Shown: positions 21,711 through 29,129 of the stretch, piece after piece
Layout: every line of letters starts with the position of its first letter
Position numbering within the stretch: the first letter of the stretch is position 1
Source of the DNA: Halobacteriales archaeon SW_6_65_15
GTDB lineage: Archaea > Halobacteriota > Halobacteria > Halobacteriales > Haladaptataceae
DNA: 32,121 nt
Assembly: GCA_003023465.1 (NCBI GenBank)
Contig: PXSM01000166.1
Coordinates: forward strand, 4,555-36,675
Reading direction: 5' to 3'
Notes under the pieces: generated by a model
Told to the model about the DNA's origin: nothing
Databases searched by the model: none
Seen by the model: the letters and a program-made list of their open reading frames with translations, nothing else
Position numbers and translations under genes: made by a program

Positions 21711-22166
21711 TCAGCGTTCGTGGACCGTCACGTCCACCTCGGCATCCGCTACCTCCGCGGTCATCATCGTCGCCTGCTCGGCCGGGTTCGCGCCCGTCGC
21801 TGACCCCGGATTCAGTAATCGGATGCCCTCGTGAACCTCGTCCTCGACGTCGTGGCTGTGGCCGCCGATGCCGACGATCGGCCGGTCGTTCGCCCACGCC
21901 CGCGTCCGGGCCCGCGCCGTGTCCGCGACGGCGTTCAGCCAGTCCTCGCGGCTCATCACCATGCCGTCGGTCAGGTGGACGGCGCGTTCCACGGGGTTGA
22001 GCGTACCGTGTGTGACGACGAACGTGACGCCGCCGAGCGTCGTCTCGGCGACCGACGGCAGGCCGACACCTTTCGGGTCGGCATTCCCCTGCACGGCGGT
22101 CAGTTCGTCAGGAATCTCCTCCTCGCGGGCGGGGACGTGGGTATCGGAGATGATTGCGAGTTGCAC
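21711..22166 (-). CDS. YfcE/MJ0936-type metallophosphoesterase missing its GD motif
   Basis: 151 residues from a GTG at 22166 (V-Q-L-A-I-I-S-D-T-H). A TATA-like element on the minus strand (22187-22197) suits this leaderless start, and codons upstream overlap an etfA remnant. Metal-binding motifs present are DTH (9-11), GN in VQGNADP, THGT and GGHSH. The expected segment with HAGDFDS between the first and second motif is missing: VPAREEEIPD runs directly into ELTAVQGN, where relatives have about 30 more residues. Without that aspartate the two-metal centre cannot form normally, so the protein is probably inactive or the sequence has a deletion. The C-terminus (GIRLLNPGSATGANPAE) is intact. 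Confidence 0.75.
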   Translation of the reverse strand: MQLAIISDTHVPAREEEIPDELTAVQGNADPKGVGLPSVAETTLGGVTFVVTHGTLNPVERAVHLTDGMVMSREDWLNAVADTARARTRAWANDRPIVGIGGHSHDVEDEVHEGIRLLNPGSATGANPAEQATMMTAEVADAEVDVTVHER

Positions 22167-22236
22167 GACCCCTACGTCGCGGACATGATACAAAAACGTA
22201 CTGCGAGAGTCGTGGGGTCCGCAGTCGGGCGCGGGG

Positions 22237-22408
22237 GTCAACACGGACACCGGGTCGGTCGTCACCGGGTTTGAGGAGGTCGACGGCGGCGAGGGGGTAA
22301 CCCATCATCGCCACCGATCCCAACGCGCCCATCTTCGACATCGCCGATTACAGTATTTTCGGCGACCTGTTCGATGTGGTGTCCGAACTCATCGAAGAGT
22401 TCGAGTAG
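22237..22408 (+). pseudogene. decayed 3' remnant of a second etfA
   Basis: 22237-22296 reads VNTDTGSVVTGFEEVDGG, like EtfA residues [16 protein letters not shown]. After a junction near 22297-22303 and a frame change, 22304-22408 reads [20 protein letters not shown]...ELIEEFE-stop, matching the EtfA end but lacking two residues (IN). About 80 codons between the two parts are missing. It differs from the intact etfA at many third positions, so it is a diverged paralogue, not a fresh copy. Confidence 0.8.
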
Positions 22409-22465
22409 AAACAGTAGCCTTTCCGGTATAGCTTTCACGGCAGAGCCCCAGAAATTTGAGATATC

Positions 22466-23059
22466 TCACTTTAACACAGTTGAGAGGACGTTTGTGACTT
22501 CGACTTTGTATTCCCGAGAGTTCTCCCATTCCCAAAGGCGGTCACCGTACTCAAACATGTCAAATACACCGGCACTAAGCATCCAGTTGTACTTCTCGTG
22601 TTCTGTTTGCTCGTCAGGATACGTCCGTTTCAGGAGATGACATCGGTCGAAGTACTCCATCAGTGCGATGAGCATTCCAAGTTCCAACTGAAAGCCCCCT
22701 TTATCATGTTCACAAATACCGATAATGTAGTCGGAGTGGTCAGCAATTAACTTGAACTGGATCATCGGGTGGAGACCGTCGGGAAAGTCTTCCATGAGAT
22801 ATGCTCTGCAGTTCTCCCCAGCCCAGTTTTGTAACTCTTCTTTAAGGTAGATGAGTTTCTGCTTCTCGTTCGCGTCCTCGTTGTAGCTTCCGAGAACGAA
22901 ACACTGCGAGTCATAAGTCGGAGGCCTGGCTAGCTCCGGTCCCATCTCCATGAGTGCCTCGTACTCTGCTGGAGGGAGATTAGTCCGATGATCGTGTTCC
23001 CGGACCTGTTGGAGGAGTTCTTGAGGTTGTAGGCAATCTTTACTGGCCTTACGGACCAT
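22466..23059 (-). CDS. TIR / deoxyribosyltransferase-like protein
   Basis: 197 residues from the ATG at 23059. CTTATA (23084-23089) on the complementary strand gives a TATA box 26-31 bases upstream. The core is an alpha/beta domain: strand CFVLGSYNED (53-62), AYLMEDFPDG (87-95), and strand YIIGICEHDKGGFQLELGM (111-129) with Glu126 in the G-x-x-x-E-L-G position. This is where TIR and nucleoside 2-deoxyribosyltransferase-like domains keep their catalytic glutamate. The C-terminal part is aromatic-rich (YNWMLSAGVFDMF, LWEWEN). Base composition is clearly more AT-rich than the neighbours, suggesting transfer. It is divergent from a wHTH gene. The fold assignment is by motif only; a role in immunity is an inference. 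Confidence 0.6.
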   Translation of the reverse strand: MVRKASKDCLQPQELLQQVREHDHRTNLPPAEYEALMEMGPELARPPTYDSQCFVLGSYNEDANEKQKLIYLKEELQNWAGENCRAYLMEDFPDGLHPMIQFKLIADHSDYIIGICEHDKGGFQLELGMLIALMEYFDRCHLLKRTYPDEQTEHEKYNWMLSAGVFDMFEYGDRLWEWENSREYKVEVTNVLSTVLK

Positions 23060-23392
23060 TTGACGGCTAGTATGTAGCACATTCTTATAGTGCTTTCGAC
23101 TGTTGTAGTCTATACCAATGTGGTCACCACCACAACTGTTATTAAGTACAAATTCAAACAAAGAGGTATGCGTTGGGAGACCCACGTCAGTACGGCGAAG
23201 GACACGCAAGCATTATCGAGAAAAGCACGCAATACAGGAGATTGCGTGGCTTGATAATGTGAACGTAGTCCACGTACACTCGATAGAATCGCTGGTAAGT
23301 CAACCGGGTACGAAGAAAAACAGTAACCCACGGAATTCGCCCCGTCATATGACCAGCTCCACGTGGGGCTAGGCGTATGACTACAGACAAAG
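23060..23392. other. 333-base divergent intergenic region of the AT-rich island
   Basis: It holds the TATA box of the leftward gene (23084-23089) and a TATA-like CATATG (23347-23352) for the rightward one. An ATG at 23377 starts a 12-codon frame (MTTDKDDPTQEK, stop at 23413-23415) that overlaps the wHTH gene start. The centre is AT-rich with no gene that I can support; reading further upstream from the leftward gene gives only a TTG-started extension. Confidence 0.5.
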
Positions 23393-23905
23393 ATGACCCA
23401 ACACAAGAAAAATGACGGTTCCCTGCTACAGAGTAGGGAGAGTTCGAACCAGAACCCGGAAGAACAGGCTGACAACATCCGGGAACTACTGAACCTCGTT
23501 ACACAAGAAACGAGGTACGTGCTGATTCAGAATATCGTGGCGCATCCAAAAGAGATGCCCTCGCTGAAGGAATTAGCATACGCGAATCCAAGTAAAAGCA
23601 AAAGTACGATTCGGAACCACCTTGACAAGCTGATCGAAGCTGACGTTGTCGAGGCAGTTCATCTGCCTAAAGAAGAACGGAGTCGAGACCTACCACACAG
23701 GTTCTTCCGCTTGACTGGAGCAGGTCGTGGTTTCCTTGAAAACCACGACCTGCTGAAGGCGGAAGAAACCCTCAAGGAGATGCATTCGATGTTGGAGAAG
23801 ACGGACGAGATTCAGAAATACGCAGAAGCACCTCGTCCGAGTATTCCAGAAAACAACGACGATGAAGAGATGTCGGGCAACTCGCGTCGAAAAGTAAAGC
23901 CATAA
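23393..23905 (+). CDS. winged-helix transcription regulator
   Basis: 170 residues. The wHTH is at about 25-105: LLNLVTQETRYVLIQNIVAHP, LKELAYANPSKSKSTIRNHLDKLIEADVV (recognition helix around 60-75), and the wing-region LPHRFFRLTGAGRGFLENHDLL. A helical tail (LLKAEETLKEMHSMLEKTDEIQKY) and a basic C-terminus follow. This architecture is common in haloarchaeal ArsR-like regulators next to mobile or defence genes. The true start may be the leaderless ATG at 23377, in another frame. Removing one A from the A5 run at 23408-23412 would join it smoothly (MTTDKDDPTQENDGSLL...). The partner gene is the divergent TIR-like gene. Confidence 0.75.
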   Translation: MTQHKKNDGSLLQSRESSNQNPEEQADNIRELLNLVTQETRYVLIQNIVAHPKEMPSLKELAYANPSKSKSTIRNHLDKLIEADVVEAVHLPKEERSRDLPHRFFRLTGAGRGFLENHDLLKAEETLKEMHSMLEKTDEIQKYAEAPRPSIPENNDDEEMSGNSRRKVKP

Positions 23906-24905: not shown

Positions 24906-25997
24906 TTAACTCACCCGTTCGGCCTGCCGCGACTGGCGCGACTCCGCGATGGCGAACGCCAGCGTGCTGACGAGCCCGAGCAGGGTACCAGCCGTGAGCA
25001 TCGCCGCGAGGTACGTGAGCGAGACCCGCCCGAGGAAGTAGGCGCTGACTGCGTGGAGGACGGCCGCGATGGCGAAGACGTAGAACGGCGCGTTCAGGTA
25101 GCGCCACCGGAAGCGGTCGGCCAGATACTCGTCGGTAATCTGGCCGAGGCTGGTGGTGATGCCCGCGGCGGTGAACCACGTCACGGCCCCGTAAACGAGC
25201 GCCGCGAGGACGCGCAGGGGACCGACCGGGTCGTCGGTTCCGCTCTCGACCACGTCCAGCATCTCGACGCCCCGGACGCCGCCGATGACCAGCAGGGCAG
25301 CCGCGACGACGTAGGTGATAAGCGTCACCCGGCCCGCGTACAGGCTGTTTCTGGCCGTCTCGGCCGCCTCGTCCAGTAGTTGCTCGACGCCCAGCCCTCT
25401 GCCGAGGACGTAGAGGCCAAGCAGGCCGGAGGTGACGCCGAAGACGGCCGCGCCGGGGAGTCCGAGCGCGTCGGAGATGATGGCCAGCGGGTAGATGAGC
25501 AACAGGATGCCGAGCGGAACGAGGATGGTTCCGCGGGTCTCGGGGTCGTCCAGCACCTGCTTGATGGTGTAGTACATCGATTCGAGGTCCTGCGCCTGCC
25601 GGACGACCACCCGGCGCACCCCATCGACAGTGACCCGCGAGCGGACGACCGGAATCACGCTCTCGTCCTGCGCGCCGTCGGTGACGATGACCGCCCGGAC
25701 CTCCTCGCTGGTCGAGAGGCCCGCGAGTACCTCGTCGACCTCGTCGCCGACCGCCCGATTCGCGGCGATGTCGCCGCCCTCGTTGCCGGTCACGACCGCC
25801 ACCTCTACCTGCTCGTCCGCGATCTGGTCGGCGAGGTGGACGCCCTCGAACATGACGTTCACGTCGCTGTCCTCGGGGTCGGCAGTCGCTAACGAGACCG
25901 CGGCCGCTTCCACCGCGTCCCTACCGACGACGGGCGTGTCGAAGGTGGTCTTGCGACCGAGGTCGTCGTCGAGGTCCACGCACAGGACCAGCAGCAT
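24906..25997 (-). CDS. DUF373 family membrane protein
   Basis: 363 residues. The soluble N-terminal domain (1 to about 145) begins MLLVLCVDLDDDLGRKT, with VAVVTGNEGGDIAANRAVGDEVDEVL and AVIVTDGAQDESVIPVVRSR, which are DUF373 hallmarks. QDLESMYYTIKQVLDDPETRGT leads into a C-terminal part with about six membrane helices. The family is archaeal and widespread with no proven function. A TATA-like AGTTAAA (26021-26027) lies 24-30 bases before the ATG. Confidence 0.9.
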   Translation of the reverse strand: MLLVLCVDLDDDLGRKTTFDTPVVGRDAVEAAAVSLATADPEDSDVNVMFEGVHLADQIADEQVEVAVVTGNEGGDIAANRAVGDEVDEVLAGLSTSEEVRAVIVTDGAQDESVIPVVRSRVTVDGVRRVVVRQAQDLESMYYTIKQVLDDPETRGTILVPLGILLLIYPLAIISDALGLPGAAVFGVTSGLLGLYVLGRGLGVEQLLDEAAETARNSLYAGRVTLITYVVAAALLVIGGVRGVEMLDVVESGTDDPVGPLRVLAALVYGAVTWFTAAGITTSLGQITDEYLADRFRWRYLNAPFYVFAIAAVLHAVSAYFLGRVSLTYLAAMLTAGTLLGLVSTLAFAIAESRQSRQAERVS

Positions 25998-26197
25998 TAT
26001 CGGGGGGTATGCGTCCGGGGTTTAACTTCTTTCGGGGAAGCGATCAGAGGTCGGAAGCTACTCCGCTGAGGGTGTCGGAGCTTGGCTTCCTCTACAACAC
26101 TAACATCAAAACAGTGTCTCTATAGCATCGATATTAAAACGATGTGCGAAGGACGAAGATGTGAGTGTAAACGGCTACGCGTAAATGGGAAGCGCAA

Positions 26198-26983
26198 TCA
26201 GTTAGAATAACAGTCCCCGCCGAAACAGTGGTAGCGGCAACCGGAGCAACAGCCGGTGCCCCCACATTCGTTCGTACTTACTTCCCCCCAGTAACAATCG
26301 TCGGAATCAGGACAACAGTAAACCTCCGTTGTCCAACATCCAGGGTCATTAGCACACGACTCTATGTGTACTTCCTCGTATTTGCAAACACCACTAGTGT
26401 AGCAAGAGGAAGTAGTCGAAACGATGGTGTTATCCTGCTCTTCAATCACGAAATGTTTATCACCGTCTTTGGCATCGAATCGTTGTGTGACGATCATGTA
26501 TGCGCGGTTAATTTCAGGCTGAACAGTAAGATCAAGCTTGAAATCTTTCATCCATTTGTGCGTACGGAGGCTGGCAGAGGGAGTCCCTTTCCATGTCCCG
26601 AAGCCCATCGAAGCAAAACCGTGATTGAACGGGAATGCCTCAATTGAGGGTTCTTCGATGATCCGCCAATCAGACTTGACGTATCGGTCGTCTACTCGCT
26701 CGGAGAGTACTTCGTTTTCGCTGACGGGTGACGAGAGAGTCTCGAAAATCTTTGCTGCGTTCCTGTTGAAGACATCTCGCTGTTTCTCTACGTCCATGCC
26801 GAAATACTGGTTTCGCAGTTCTCTTCTTTTCTTCTCTGAAATCGGTCCTCTGTCACTACTATTGTATTTCGTGACACCGTCGCTCTTCGCTGCCTTTACC
26901 TTCCTTGTACTTATCGTGAGAGCACTTACACCGCCAGCAAGTGATTGAAGAACTTTCCGCCGGTTTGGACTATCGTGCGACAT
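26198..26983 (-). CDS. Tat-exported protein with 13-cysteine C-terminal peptide (halocin-like precursor candidate)
   Basis: 261 residues. The twin-arginine signal NRRKVLQSLAGGVSALTIS (7-25) targets folded export. A charged central region (about 35-190) has no cysteine. All 13 cysteines lie in the last 68 residues (194-261), in clusters such as YCCPDSDDC, GGTGCCSGC and HCFGGDC. The layout (Tat signal, cysteine-free pro-region, compact Cys-rich tail) is like that of the halocin C8 precursor, but I see no sequence match to halocin C8, whose tail is hydrophobic. Alternatives: a metal- or redox-binding surface protein. The DNA is markedly AT-rich compared with the flanks. The ATG at 26983 is supported by a TATA box at 27009-27015. 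Confidence 0.65.
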   Translation of the reverse strand: MSHDSPNRRKVLQSLAGGVSALTISTRKVKAAKSDGVTKYNSSDRGPISEKKRRELRNQYFGMDVEKQRDVFNRNAAKIFETLSSPVSENEVLSERVDDRYVKSDWRIIEEPSIEAFPFNHGFASMGFGTWKGTPSASLRTHKWMKDFKLDLTVQPEINRAYMIVTQRFDAKDGDKHFVIEEQDNTIVSTTSSCYTSGVCKYEEVHIESCANDPGCWTTEVYCCPDSDDCYWGEVSTNECGGTGCCSGCRYHCFGGDCYSN

Positions 26984-27010
26984 TGCATTGTTATTTAGCA
27001 CCTGTTGCAA

Positions 27011-27164
27011 TAAAATTTTTTATTATTTGCTAGTTATATGCCGTAGAAATTCCTATTGTAACCGACATCCGATACCTTCAGACCCCCAATACGTAATTCT
27101 CCAAACGTACTTTATTCCCGCTTTCTGTTCTTTGCTCGCGGCCTATTGTGAATCGAACAGGAGA
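27011..27164. other. AT-rich intergenic stretch
   Basis: There is no gene. The left end carries the AT-rich promoter of the Cys-rich gene (AATAAAATTTTTTATT). The rest is the 3' region of the lipoprotein gene. Confidence 0.4.
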
Positions 27165-27881
27165 TTATCCTTCAATCCAATCCGGACGTTCCACAGTAGT
27201 CTCGTCAAGGTCGCGGAGGTGCCACTCATCAACTTGTCTAGTACTATCACCGGCAAGAGTTCGTTCGAAATTGTATCCGAGTCCATTCTCTCCGATTAGG
27301 GCTTGAACACTGACCCAATTCAGACGTTCGCTGTCCGGATCACTTCCAGTGTTACTAAACCGATACAAAGTCTCGTCGTTCGTCGCCTCCGTTCCGATCT
27401 TGTTCACACTGGCGGATTCGAGCGATGAGCGGCCTGTGAATTCCCCTTTATTGATAGAGAGTTGCTCTGTCTCTCCCGTCTGCCACTCACTATCGATTCG
27501 CTTCCGATAGGACGTCGTGTTTTCACCGTAGTAAACCTCGAGTCGATCGGCGTCAGTTCCCGAGAAGGAGGCGCGACCCCTTACGTCGGCGTGGACACGG
27601 TCCCCCTCGACACGGACAGTCCAGAGCGTGTGGGTCTTCGGGTTGCTCGTCTCGGGGTCAAGTGACACCCTCGTCCACTCCACAGTCCCACTCCGGTTGG
27701 CAAGTTGGTTACTATGTGCGGTAGCGAGTTCGTGATTATCAGTGACTTCGCCGTCTTCGACGCCCGGAATTCCTTCGCTTGTCCCTGTGTCCTTCATAGA
27801 ACTACCGGTACAGCCAGCCACGATCGCGGTAAGGCCTAACATACCAGTTCGGAGAACCGAACGCCGAGGTAATTGCGTCAT
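27165..27881 (-). CDS. Tat lipoprotein of unknown function (DUF7537-like)
   Basis: 238 residues. PRRSVLRTGMLGLTAIVAGC combines a twin-arginine motif with a lipobox (AGC, Cys24), so it should be exported folded and lipid-anchored outside. The mature part is beta-rich (THTLWTVRVEGDRVHADVRGRASF, DRLEVYYGENTTSYRKRID), similar to haloarchaeal DUF7537 lipoproteins as I remember them (ANRSGTVEWTR near the N-terminus). A TATA element (CTTAAAT, 27906-27912) lies 25-31 bases before the ATG. It is in the same AT-rich island, and on the same strand, as the Cys-rich exported protein. The two may act together at the surface (inference). Confidence 0.7.
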   Translation of the reverse strand: MTQLPRRSVLRTGMLGLTAIVAGCTGSSMKDTGTSEGIPGVEDGEVTDNHELATAHSNQLANRSGTVEWTRVSLDPETSNPKTHTLWTVRVEGDRVHADVRGRASFSGTDADRLEVYYGENTTSYRKRIDSEWQTGETEQLSINKGEFTGRSSLESASVNKIGTEATNDETLYRFSNTGSDPDSERLNWVSVQALIGENGLGYNFERTLAGDSTRQVDEWHLRDLDETTVERPDWIEG

Positions 27882-28136
27882 AGGCAGGTATTAGATATGC
27901 TACAACTTAAATATTCTGGGTATATTGACTATAAAAAACCTTCATAGAGAGTAGTTTATAAGTTGGGATTTTCTTTTGAATGATGCGTTACTCTTGTGCT
28001 TCATCACCAACAACGTAAATTGAGTAGATAGTTTCGGAACTGTACAGAACGGGATACTCGTTAGCATAGTTGATTTCCTTCGAAACACAGATTCGCACGC
28101 TTTTTCAGCGTCGGCCCAGTACACAGTTACAACTGA
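27882..28136. other. 255-base AT-rich gap
   Basis: It contains the lipoprotein promoter and, at its right end, a CTTTTTC element before the radical SAM gene. No gene or RNA is recognised. The composition returns to GC-rich only at about 28080, which marks the right edge of the acquired-looking island. Confidence 0.45.
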
Positions 28137-29129
28137 ATGATCTCGAAAGGCTGTGAACAGTGCGCCAAAGGGGGCAAGATGGTGCTCTTCGTCTACGGCT
28201 ACTGCGACCAGCGGGACTGCTTCTACTGTCCCCTCGGCGAGAACCGCAAGAACGTCACCGACGTGTACGCCAACGAGCGGAAGGTCGAGTCCGACGAGGA
28301 CGTCATCGCCGAGGCCAACCGCATGGACGCCCTCGGGACCTCCATCACGGGTGGCGAGCCACAGGAGGCGATGGCGAAGACGACGCGGTACCTCCGCCTG
28401 CTCAAGGACGAGTTCGGCGAGGACCACCACACCCACCTCTACACCGGCATCACCGGCGGACGCGAGAACATGCGTCGCCTGTCCGAAGCGGGTCTGGACG
28501 AGATCCGATTCCACCCGCCGCTGGACCTCTGGGGCGACATGCACGGCACAGAGTGGGAGGACATCCTCTACGTCGCCCGCGAGGAGGGCCTGACCCCCGC
28601 GTTCGAGATTCCCGGCATCCGGGCCGAGGAGGAGTTCCTCAAATTCCTCGACGAGGGTGCGGCCGAGTTCTGCAACGTCAACGAGTTCGAGATGAGTCAG
28701 GGGAACTTCCGCCGGATGCAGGAGAAGGGCTACGAACTCCAGGACGGCCACATGAGCGCGGTCGAGGGCTCGAAGGAGATTCTCGACGTGATGGGCGACC
28801 ACGAGCGCGTCTACTTCTGCACCTCCGTGTTCAAGGACGCCGCCCAGCACCGCAACCGGATGAAGCGCATGGCCCGGAACATCCGCCGGGAGTTCGACGA
28901 GGTGACCGACGACGGGACCATCGTCTACGGCAAGACGTGGGAGACCGAGGAACGACTCGAAGCCCTCGGCGTGCCCGAGAAGTTCTACACCGTCAAGTCC
29001 GACCACGTCGAACTGGCGTGGTGGCTGCTGGAGGAGATGGTCGAGGAGGGCGACGTCGAGAAGGGCGAGATCGTCGAGCAGTACCCCACCGTCGATGGGC
29101 AAGTCGTCGAGCGGACGCCGTTGGCCTGA
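28137..29129 (+). CDS. radical SAM protein (COG2108 family)
   Basis: 330 residues. The N-terminus has GCEQC (Cys6, Cys9), then the cluster motif C-DQRD-C-FY-C (Cys23, Cys28, Cys31) and PLGENRKN. The usual radical SAM spacing is CX3CX2C; here it is CX4CX2C. SITGGEPQEA (GGE motif, SAM binding) and the TIM-barrel strands (HLYTGITGG, EIRFHPPL, PAFEIPGI) follow. Archaeal proteins of this family are annotated as related to pyruvate formate-lyase activating enzyme; the substrate is unknown. Extra cysteines (EFCNVNEFE, YFCTSVFKD) could hold a second cluster or modify the substrate. The gene is full length and GC-rich, unlike the island before it. Confidence 0.88.
   Translation: MISKGCEQCAKGGKMVLFVYGYCDQRDCFYCPLGENRKNVTDVYANERKVESDEDVIAEANRMDALGTSITGGEPQEAMAKTTRYLRLLKDEFGEDHHTHLYTGITGGRENMRRLSEAGLDEIRFHPPLDLWGDMHGTEWEDILYVAREEGLTPAFEIPGIRAEEEFLKFLDEGAAEFCNVNEFEMSQGNFRRMQEKGYELQDGHMSAVEGSKEILDVMGDHERVYFCTSVFKDAAQHRNRMKRMARNIRREFDEVTDDGTIVYGKTWETEERLEALGVPEKFYTVKSDHVELAWWLLEEMVEEGDVEKGEIVEQYPTVDGQVVERTPLA

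Follow-up and report, generated by a model that had tools for sequence, protein, structure and literature searches.

What is made by a haloarchaeal gene whose product opens with a Tat signal, runs for most of its length without a cysteine and then crowds 13 of them into its last 68 residues? We addressed this question for an ORF of 261 codons, read from an ATG start on the reverse strand of a 32,121-nucleotide stretch of DNA (the window; features in Table 1), which a sequence-only reading had proposed to encode a halocin-like or cysteine-rich secreted peptide precursor in AT-rich DNA foreign to its surroundings.

A precursor gene in a variable chromosomal site

The layout described in that reading was borne out in each of its parts. 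The Tat motif reads NRRKVLQSL, residues 1-193 hold no cysteine, and the tail cysteines fall at positions 194, 200, 210, 216, 223, 224, 230, 240, 245, 246, 249, 253 and 258, a concentration (at least 13 in 68 residues) with a probability of 7e-17 against the background of 0.53% cysteine in the genes of the window. No model in Pfam, NCBIfam or PADLOC matched the protein. The GC content of the gene (0.486) follows that of the 2139-bp insert in which it lies (0.485), against 0.705 and 0.647 for the flanks.

Table 1. Features of the insert, its flanking genes and the precursor, in window coordinates
Feature	Position	Strand	Basis or remark
DUF373 gene, one flank of the insert	24906-25997		normal GC
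Low-GC insert (0.485) at a variable site of the chromosome, flanked by DUF373 and radical-SAM genes	25998-28136
Cysteine-rich-tailed Tat precursor, 261 aa	26198-26983	-	ORF reading; homologues in 59/392 genomes
Tat signal region, residues ~1-32, RRKVL at residues 8-12	26888-26983	-	R8, R9, L12 invariant (32 homologues)
Pro-domain, residues ~47-166, cysteine-free	26486-26845	-	alignment and predicted structure
Hydrophilic linker of variable sequence (residues ~167-193), where cleavage is presumed	26405-26485	-
Putative mature peptide: cysteine-rich tail with 13 Cys (residues 194-261)	26201-26404	-	sequence and alignment
Tat lipoprotein, DUF7537-like, same insert as the precursor	27165-27881	-	RRSVLRTG...VAGC; PF24381 E=5.5e-6, below curated cut-off
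Radical-SAM gene, other flank of the insert	28137-29129		normal (high) GC

Both flanking genes were found, 85-95% identical, in 17 other Halorussus genomes. Upon comparing the distance between them, we observed a gap of 127-480 bp in nine of the 17 (G001, G002, G003, G005, G006, G008, G010, G013 and G017), one of 1.0-1.8 kb with unrelated genes inside, where these were read, in seven, and one of 26 kb in the remaining genome (G009). As the flanks lie within 127-480 bp of each other in those nine genomes, the insert is foreign to the site. Elsewhere the site holds membrane proteins (L152, L157), glycosyltransferase-like proteins (L153-L156) and a hydrolase-like lipoprotein (L158), assigned by ORF reading without a family scan. 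Hence, the interval between the DUF373 and radical-SAM genes is a variable spot for insertions in Halorussus, filled differently from species to species, and its present cargo in the window is the precursor together with the DUF7537-like Tat lipoprotein.

The adjoining radical-SAM gene raised the possibility of a ribosomally synthesized and post-translationally modified peptide with this enzyme as its maturase. We rejected this candidate, because every one of the 17 other Halorussus genomes has the radical-SAM gene, high in GC and 91-95% identical, even where the adjoining slot is empty, indicating a core gene rather than a maturase for the precursor. Separately, the window holds a second low-GC island (about 0.48, positions 22000-23900), which encodes an HTH regulator (23393-23905, + strand; PF12840) and a 247-residue protein (22466-23209, - strand) matched by no Pfam or PADLOC model.

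The precursor belongs to a large haloarchaeal family

Remote relatives were first found by single-sequence genome searches (E=3e-8 to 2e-5), after which a profile of seven sequences was run against the order, represented by 392 genomes. It had matches at E<=1e-4 in 59 of them, from 26 of the 95 genera, with up to six per genome among the matches listed. A phylum-wide sample of 197 genomes gave matches at E<=1e-8 in only two, both from the same order. At a cut-off of E<1e-12, the loci that we fetched held 86 ORFs matching the profile; a tail with at least six cysteines was present in 84, the other two having 0 and 3. The protein of the window scored E=1.9e-45 against the A2 profile, which includes it. 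Members often occur in several copies or in tandem arrays, such as three in L068 and two in L051; the source genome also carries a further member split over two frames (L207/L208, C3:340-920), about 5 kb from an intact one. Two members (L088 5521-6183 and L066 7263-7922) show an extreme cysteine density, with 20-22 cysteines in tails of roughly 50 residues.

In domain-library scans of 32 members, only Tat-signal models matched consistently and no enzyme domain was found. The RRxxL motif was invariant among 32 aligned homologues and was recovered by a simple motif search in 75 of the 86 ORFs. The sequence-only reading had suggested looking for the tail on other Tat proteins and had named two findings that would speak against a peptide precursor, namely homologues that keep the tail within a folded enzyme, and a lack of export; the search returned a large family of Tat-motif proteins with cysteine-rich tails, no homologue with the tail inside an enzyme and a conserved Tat motif. 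We found no relatives of the precursor in viral contigs or PLSDB plasmids. Judged by its sequences, this is a large unannotated haloarchaeal family of Tat-type precursors with hypervariable cysteine-rich tails. The titles and abstracts returned by searches of the open literature for cysteine-rich, Tat-exported and halocin-like families contained no description of it, and an earlier mention is possible.

A modular architecture that resembles halocin C8 in layout

Aligned members share a common architecture of an RRxxL motif, an N-domain of ~110-120 residues, a variable linker and a cysteine-rich tail of 35-74 residues that is usually centred on a CC pair. The N-domain ends in the motif ..TAxIxI....LxVxVQPxxxRSYAxV, and the window protein has a motif of the type TA-x-I ... 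VQP-x-x-x-R-[SA]-[YF]-A followed by a CC-centred tail. Mean pairwise identity, with cysteines left aside, was 0.23 in the pro-domain against 0.12 in the tail; in the linker (residues ~167-193) mean pairwise identity was 0.12. AlphaFold2 models of two members left the tail unresolved; for the N-domain both predicted a helix-loop-helix and then an antiparallel sheet of four strands. Their overall confidence was low (mean pLDDT 43 and 52), with most of the N-domain in the better model at 68-87 in ten-residue blocks. Fold searches with these poor models gave a best E of 0.17, which is not significant, and a viral fold library likewise gave no significant match.

The halocin C8 precursor ProC8 is exported by the Tat pathway and split into an immunity peptide, HalI, and the halocin HalC8 (PMC11509114). 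The new family has in common with it Tat export (here from the motif), a cysteine-poor pro-domain and a C-terminal cysteine-rich peptide. The C8 peptide measures ~70 residues, and C8 precursors, like the new family, occur in haloarchaea, with the same genus among the hosts, and sometimes in several copies per genome. The tails differ in chemistry, being hydrophobic in C8 and polar, mostly acidic, in the new family. We obtained no match to TIGR04449 (halocin_C8_dom) in the window protein at E up to 10 or in 32 relatives at E up to 1, and a profile comparison of the tails by hhalign detected no similarity (P=0.78). The pro-domains gave P=0.03 with seven C8 sequences and 0.33 with 40, which is not significant, and the best single pro-domain match to C8, at 13.4 bits, was close to unrelated control ORFs, which reached up to 11.3. 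A full-length profile comparison with C8 returned a low E-value, which we discounted because it aligned the same 30 columns and Tat signals formed part of the profiles. Membership of the halocin C8 family was therefore rejected, in agreement with the earlier description of a C8-like layout on unrelated sequence. Precursors of the halocin C8 type itself (L171, L182, L184, L187, L189), several of them from Halorussus, have after the C8 domain a conserved acidic extension that ends in ..[VI][DN]VDIPY[FL].

A candidate maturation protease beside a subset of precursors

Several members of the family are adjoined by lipoproteins in which an HExxH motif is followed by an E-G-x-x-T-Y-V stretch farther downstream. 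These matched the Hvo_1808 family model NF038145 of NCBIfam at E=2e-11 to 2e-23, below its curated cut-off, making them distant relatives of that family. Among 89 precursors, eight (about 9%) had a gene for an HExxH surface protein no farther than 1.5 kb away, where 0.47 would be expected (P=3e-8); since three of the eight cases are apparently orthologous Halorussus loci and two form a tandem pair, they amount to about five independent ones. Precursor and HExxH gene lie 12 bp apart on one strand in L069 and overlap in L078, and at both loci they probably form an operon. Upon inspecting the surroundings of protease relatives in 20 further regions, chosen prospectively, we found one new adjacent precursor (L138) and none in the other 19, indicating that the HExxH protein family is broad and that a subset of it is linked to precursors, beside some of which it occurs as an accessory gene. 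The insert in the window has no HExxH surface-protein gene. We suggest the Hvo_1808-like HExxH protein as a candidate maturation protease, with protease activity predicted from its motif.

The same association could be read in another way, in which the tails are secreted inhibitors or partners that regulate surface proteases of the cell or of its competitors, and the HExxH neighbour is the cognate target. Disulfide-rich scaffolds are typical of inhibitors, which, together with the HExxH surface proteins beside a subset of loci, speaks for this idea. However, most members have no protease neighbour, the tails are very diverse, and searches of Pfam and PDB sequences returned neither a known inhibitor domain nor a relative of solved structure, so that we consider inhibition unlikely.

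No comparable role emerged for the lipoprotein in the insert. That the next gene upstream on the same strand encodes a Tat lipoprotein, as had been read from the DNA, is correct, and the protein is weakly DUF7537-like; its suggested role as partner or immunity factor found no support. In 16 genomes checked, DUF7537-like genes numbered 4-13 per genome and were seldom beside precursors, with one further adjoining case in L059. As such genes are frequent and their proximity to precursors is not clearly enriched, position alone does not make the neighbour an immunity factor, and across the precursor loci of the family there was no consistently present gene that could be one.

Tails are usually constrained within lineages and differ between them

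Within closely related pairs, dN was well below dS in body and tail alike, showing that purifying selection acts on relatives of the precursor. In about two thirds of 32 related pairs, mostly orthologues, the tail had a lower dN than the body, and in L065/L080 the tails were 75% and the bodies 47% identical. Cysteines were mostly kept between related pairs, and all were kept in the closest. Some tandem or divergent paralogues (L067, L050/L098) instead had tails more divergent than their bodies. Within a lineage the tail is thus usually under tighter constraint than the body, and yet it differs between lineages, which is the pattern of a mature effector joined to a tolerant pro-region.

Conservation of tails between orthologues is unlike the fast diversification of a strict arms race, and this counts against an antagonist. 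It would also suit secreted peptides for signalling or kin recognition, pheromone-like and not antimicrobial, given tails that are hypervariable across the family and conserved between orthologues, and several paralogues per genome. No conserved receptor or regulator gene was found nearby across the loci, though, and tails of 35-74 residues with 6-22 cysteines seem costly for a signal. We regard a purely signalling role as distinctly unlikely.

Even cysteine counts point to disulfides

Counting cysteines in the tails, we obtained an even number for 81 of the 84 members (P=1e-20); after single-linkage grouping at 40% identity, 53 of the 56 groups were even (P=8e-13). Such parity across the family makes intramolecular disulfides likely and metal binding less so. 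It also removes the support for the earlier suggestion that the odd count in the window marks a metal site or an intermolecular bond, the window copy being exceptional within the family. A metal-binding domain, metallothionein-like or redox, on an exported protein would fit the very high cysteine density of L066 and L088 and the 13 cysteines of the window copy; against it, metal binding does not need the even counts, the Tat motif predicts an extracytoplasmic location and the alignment contains no conserved metal motif, which together make this domain very unlikely.

Odd counts were limited to three members, with 13 cysteines in the window gene, 11 in a paralogue from its own draft genome and 7 in L128. 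An HExxH lipoprotein gene beside that paralogue is split by a frameshift (L049, source genome C114, 9638-10818), the mark of a pseudogene or of an error in assembly. With this gene frameshifted and another member of the same genome split over two frames, decay or assembly error is a plausible source of the odd number, and the window copy may be defective, dimeric or mis-sequenced. That this copy is a cassette in decay or wrongly assembled, with no function at present, in a family that is itself functional, would agree with these defects, with the rarity of odd counts elsewhere and with an assembly that is 62% complete, but we hold it highly improbable for an intact ORF that keeps the signal, the body motif and the CC-centred tail pattern.

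Discussion

We suggest that the members of the family each end in a different disulfide-rich peptide, which a protease probably sets free to serve as a weapon or a signal; production would resemble that of known halocins, with unrelated sequences. Among the readings considered we favour the more specific proposal of a halocin-like precursor, whose tail would be cut off as a disulfide peptide antagonising related archaea, and we give it an even chance. In its favour are the size of the family and its arrays, the hypervariable tails with their even cysteine counts, the lower dN of the tail in most related pairs, the HExxH neighbours, and the parallels with ProC8 and with a protease-activated precursor in Haloferax mediterranei. 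According to this proposal, the gene product would be a preproprotein exported by the Tat pathway, in which the ~120-residue pro-domain would chaperone the tail, mask it or do both, and might be self-protective, as HalI is for halocin C8. Outside the cell, the tail would fold with intramolecular disulfides, a secreted protease would cut the variable linker, and a disulfide-rich peptide of ~7 kDa would be set free to act against related archaea. As members differ mainly in the tail, each genome could have its own small arsenal. The Hvo_1808-like HExxH lipoprotein would be the likely protease, encoded next door in about 9% of cases, and the window copy would use one encoded elsewhere. Against the halocin-like proposal count the lack of an adjoining protease in most members, the window copy included, the 19 of 20 further protease regions that hold no precursor, the odd cysteine number of the window tail, the failure to find a consistently present candidate immunity gene, and structure models that do not resolve the tail.

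Two known systems bear comparison, the second by analogy only. In Haloferax mediterranei, a protease-activated antagonist precursor was shown (mBio 2026; PMC12893001), the HmHapP/HFX_0892-HlyR4 system, in which a helical fragment from the N-terminus is active and a serine halolysin serves as the protease (PMC12893001). Compared by description only, it is like the new family in its secreted precursor and in activation by an extracellular protease, as proposed here, and differs in that we place the proposed activity in a disulfide-rich C-terminus and that our candidate protease has an HExxH motif.

Conotoxin-type precursors of cone snails join a signal and a pro-region to a hypervariable, disulfide-rich C-terminal peptide and occur as many paralogues. 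The new family, in contrast, is archaeal and of the Tat type, and we claim no homology. Tentatively, and as a possibility that we place somewhat short of an even chance, the family may represent an undescribed haloarchaea-wide class of gene-encoded peptides rich in disulfides, each made as the hypervariable tail of a preproprotein that the Tat pathway exports, and matured at some loci by a dedicated HExxH surface protease encoded alongside.

If true, this would be an archaeal counterpart to conotoxin-style peptide arsenals. The halocins of known sequence are few. With 84 cysteine-tailed members read, the family would add many diverse candidate peptide effectors of archaea, a set that would carry a testable disulfide signature and, in some loci, an adjoining candidate protease. 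It would also offer a way into the question of how peptides rich in disulfides, once exported by the Tat pathway, reach their fold in near-saturated salt.
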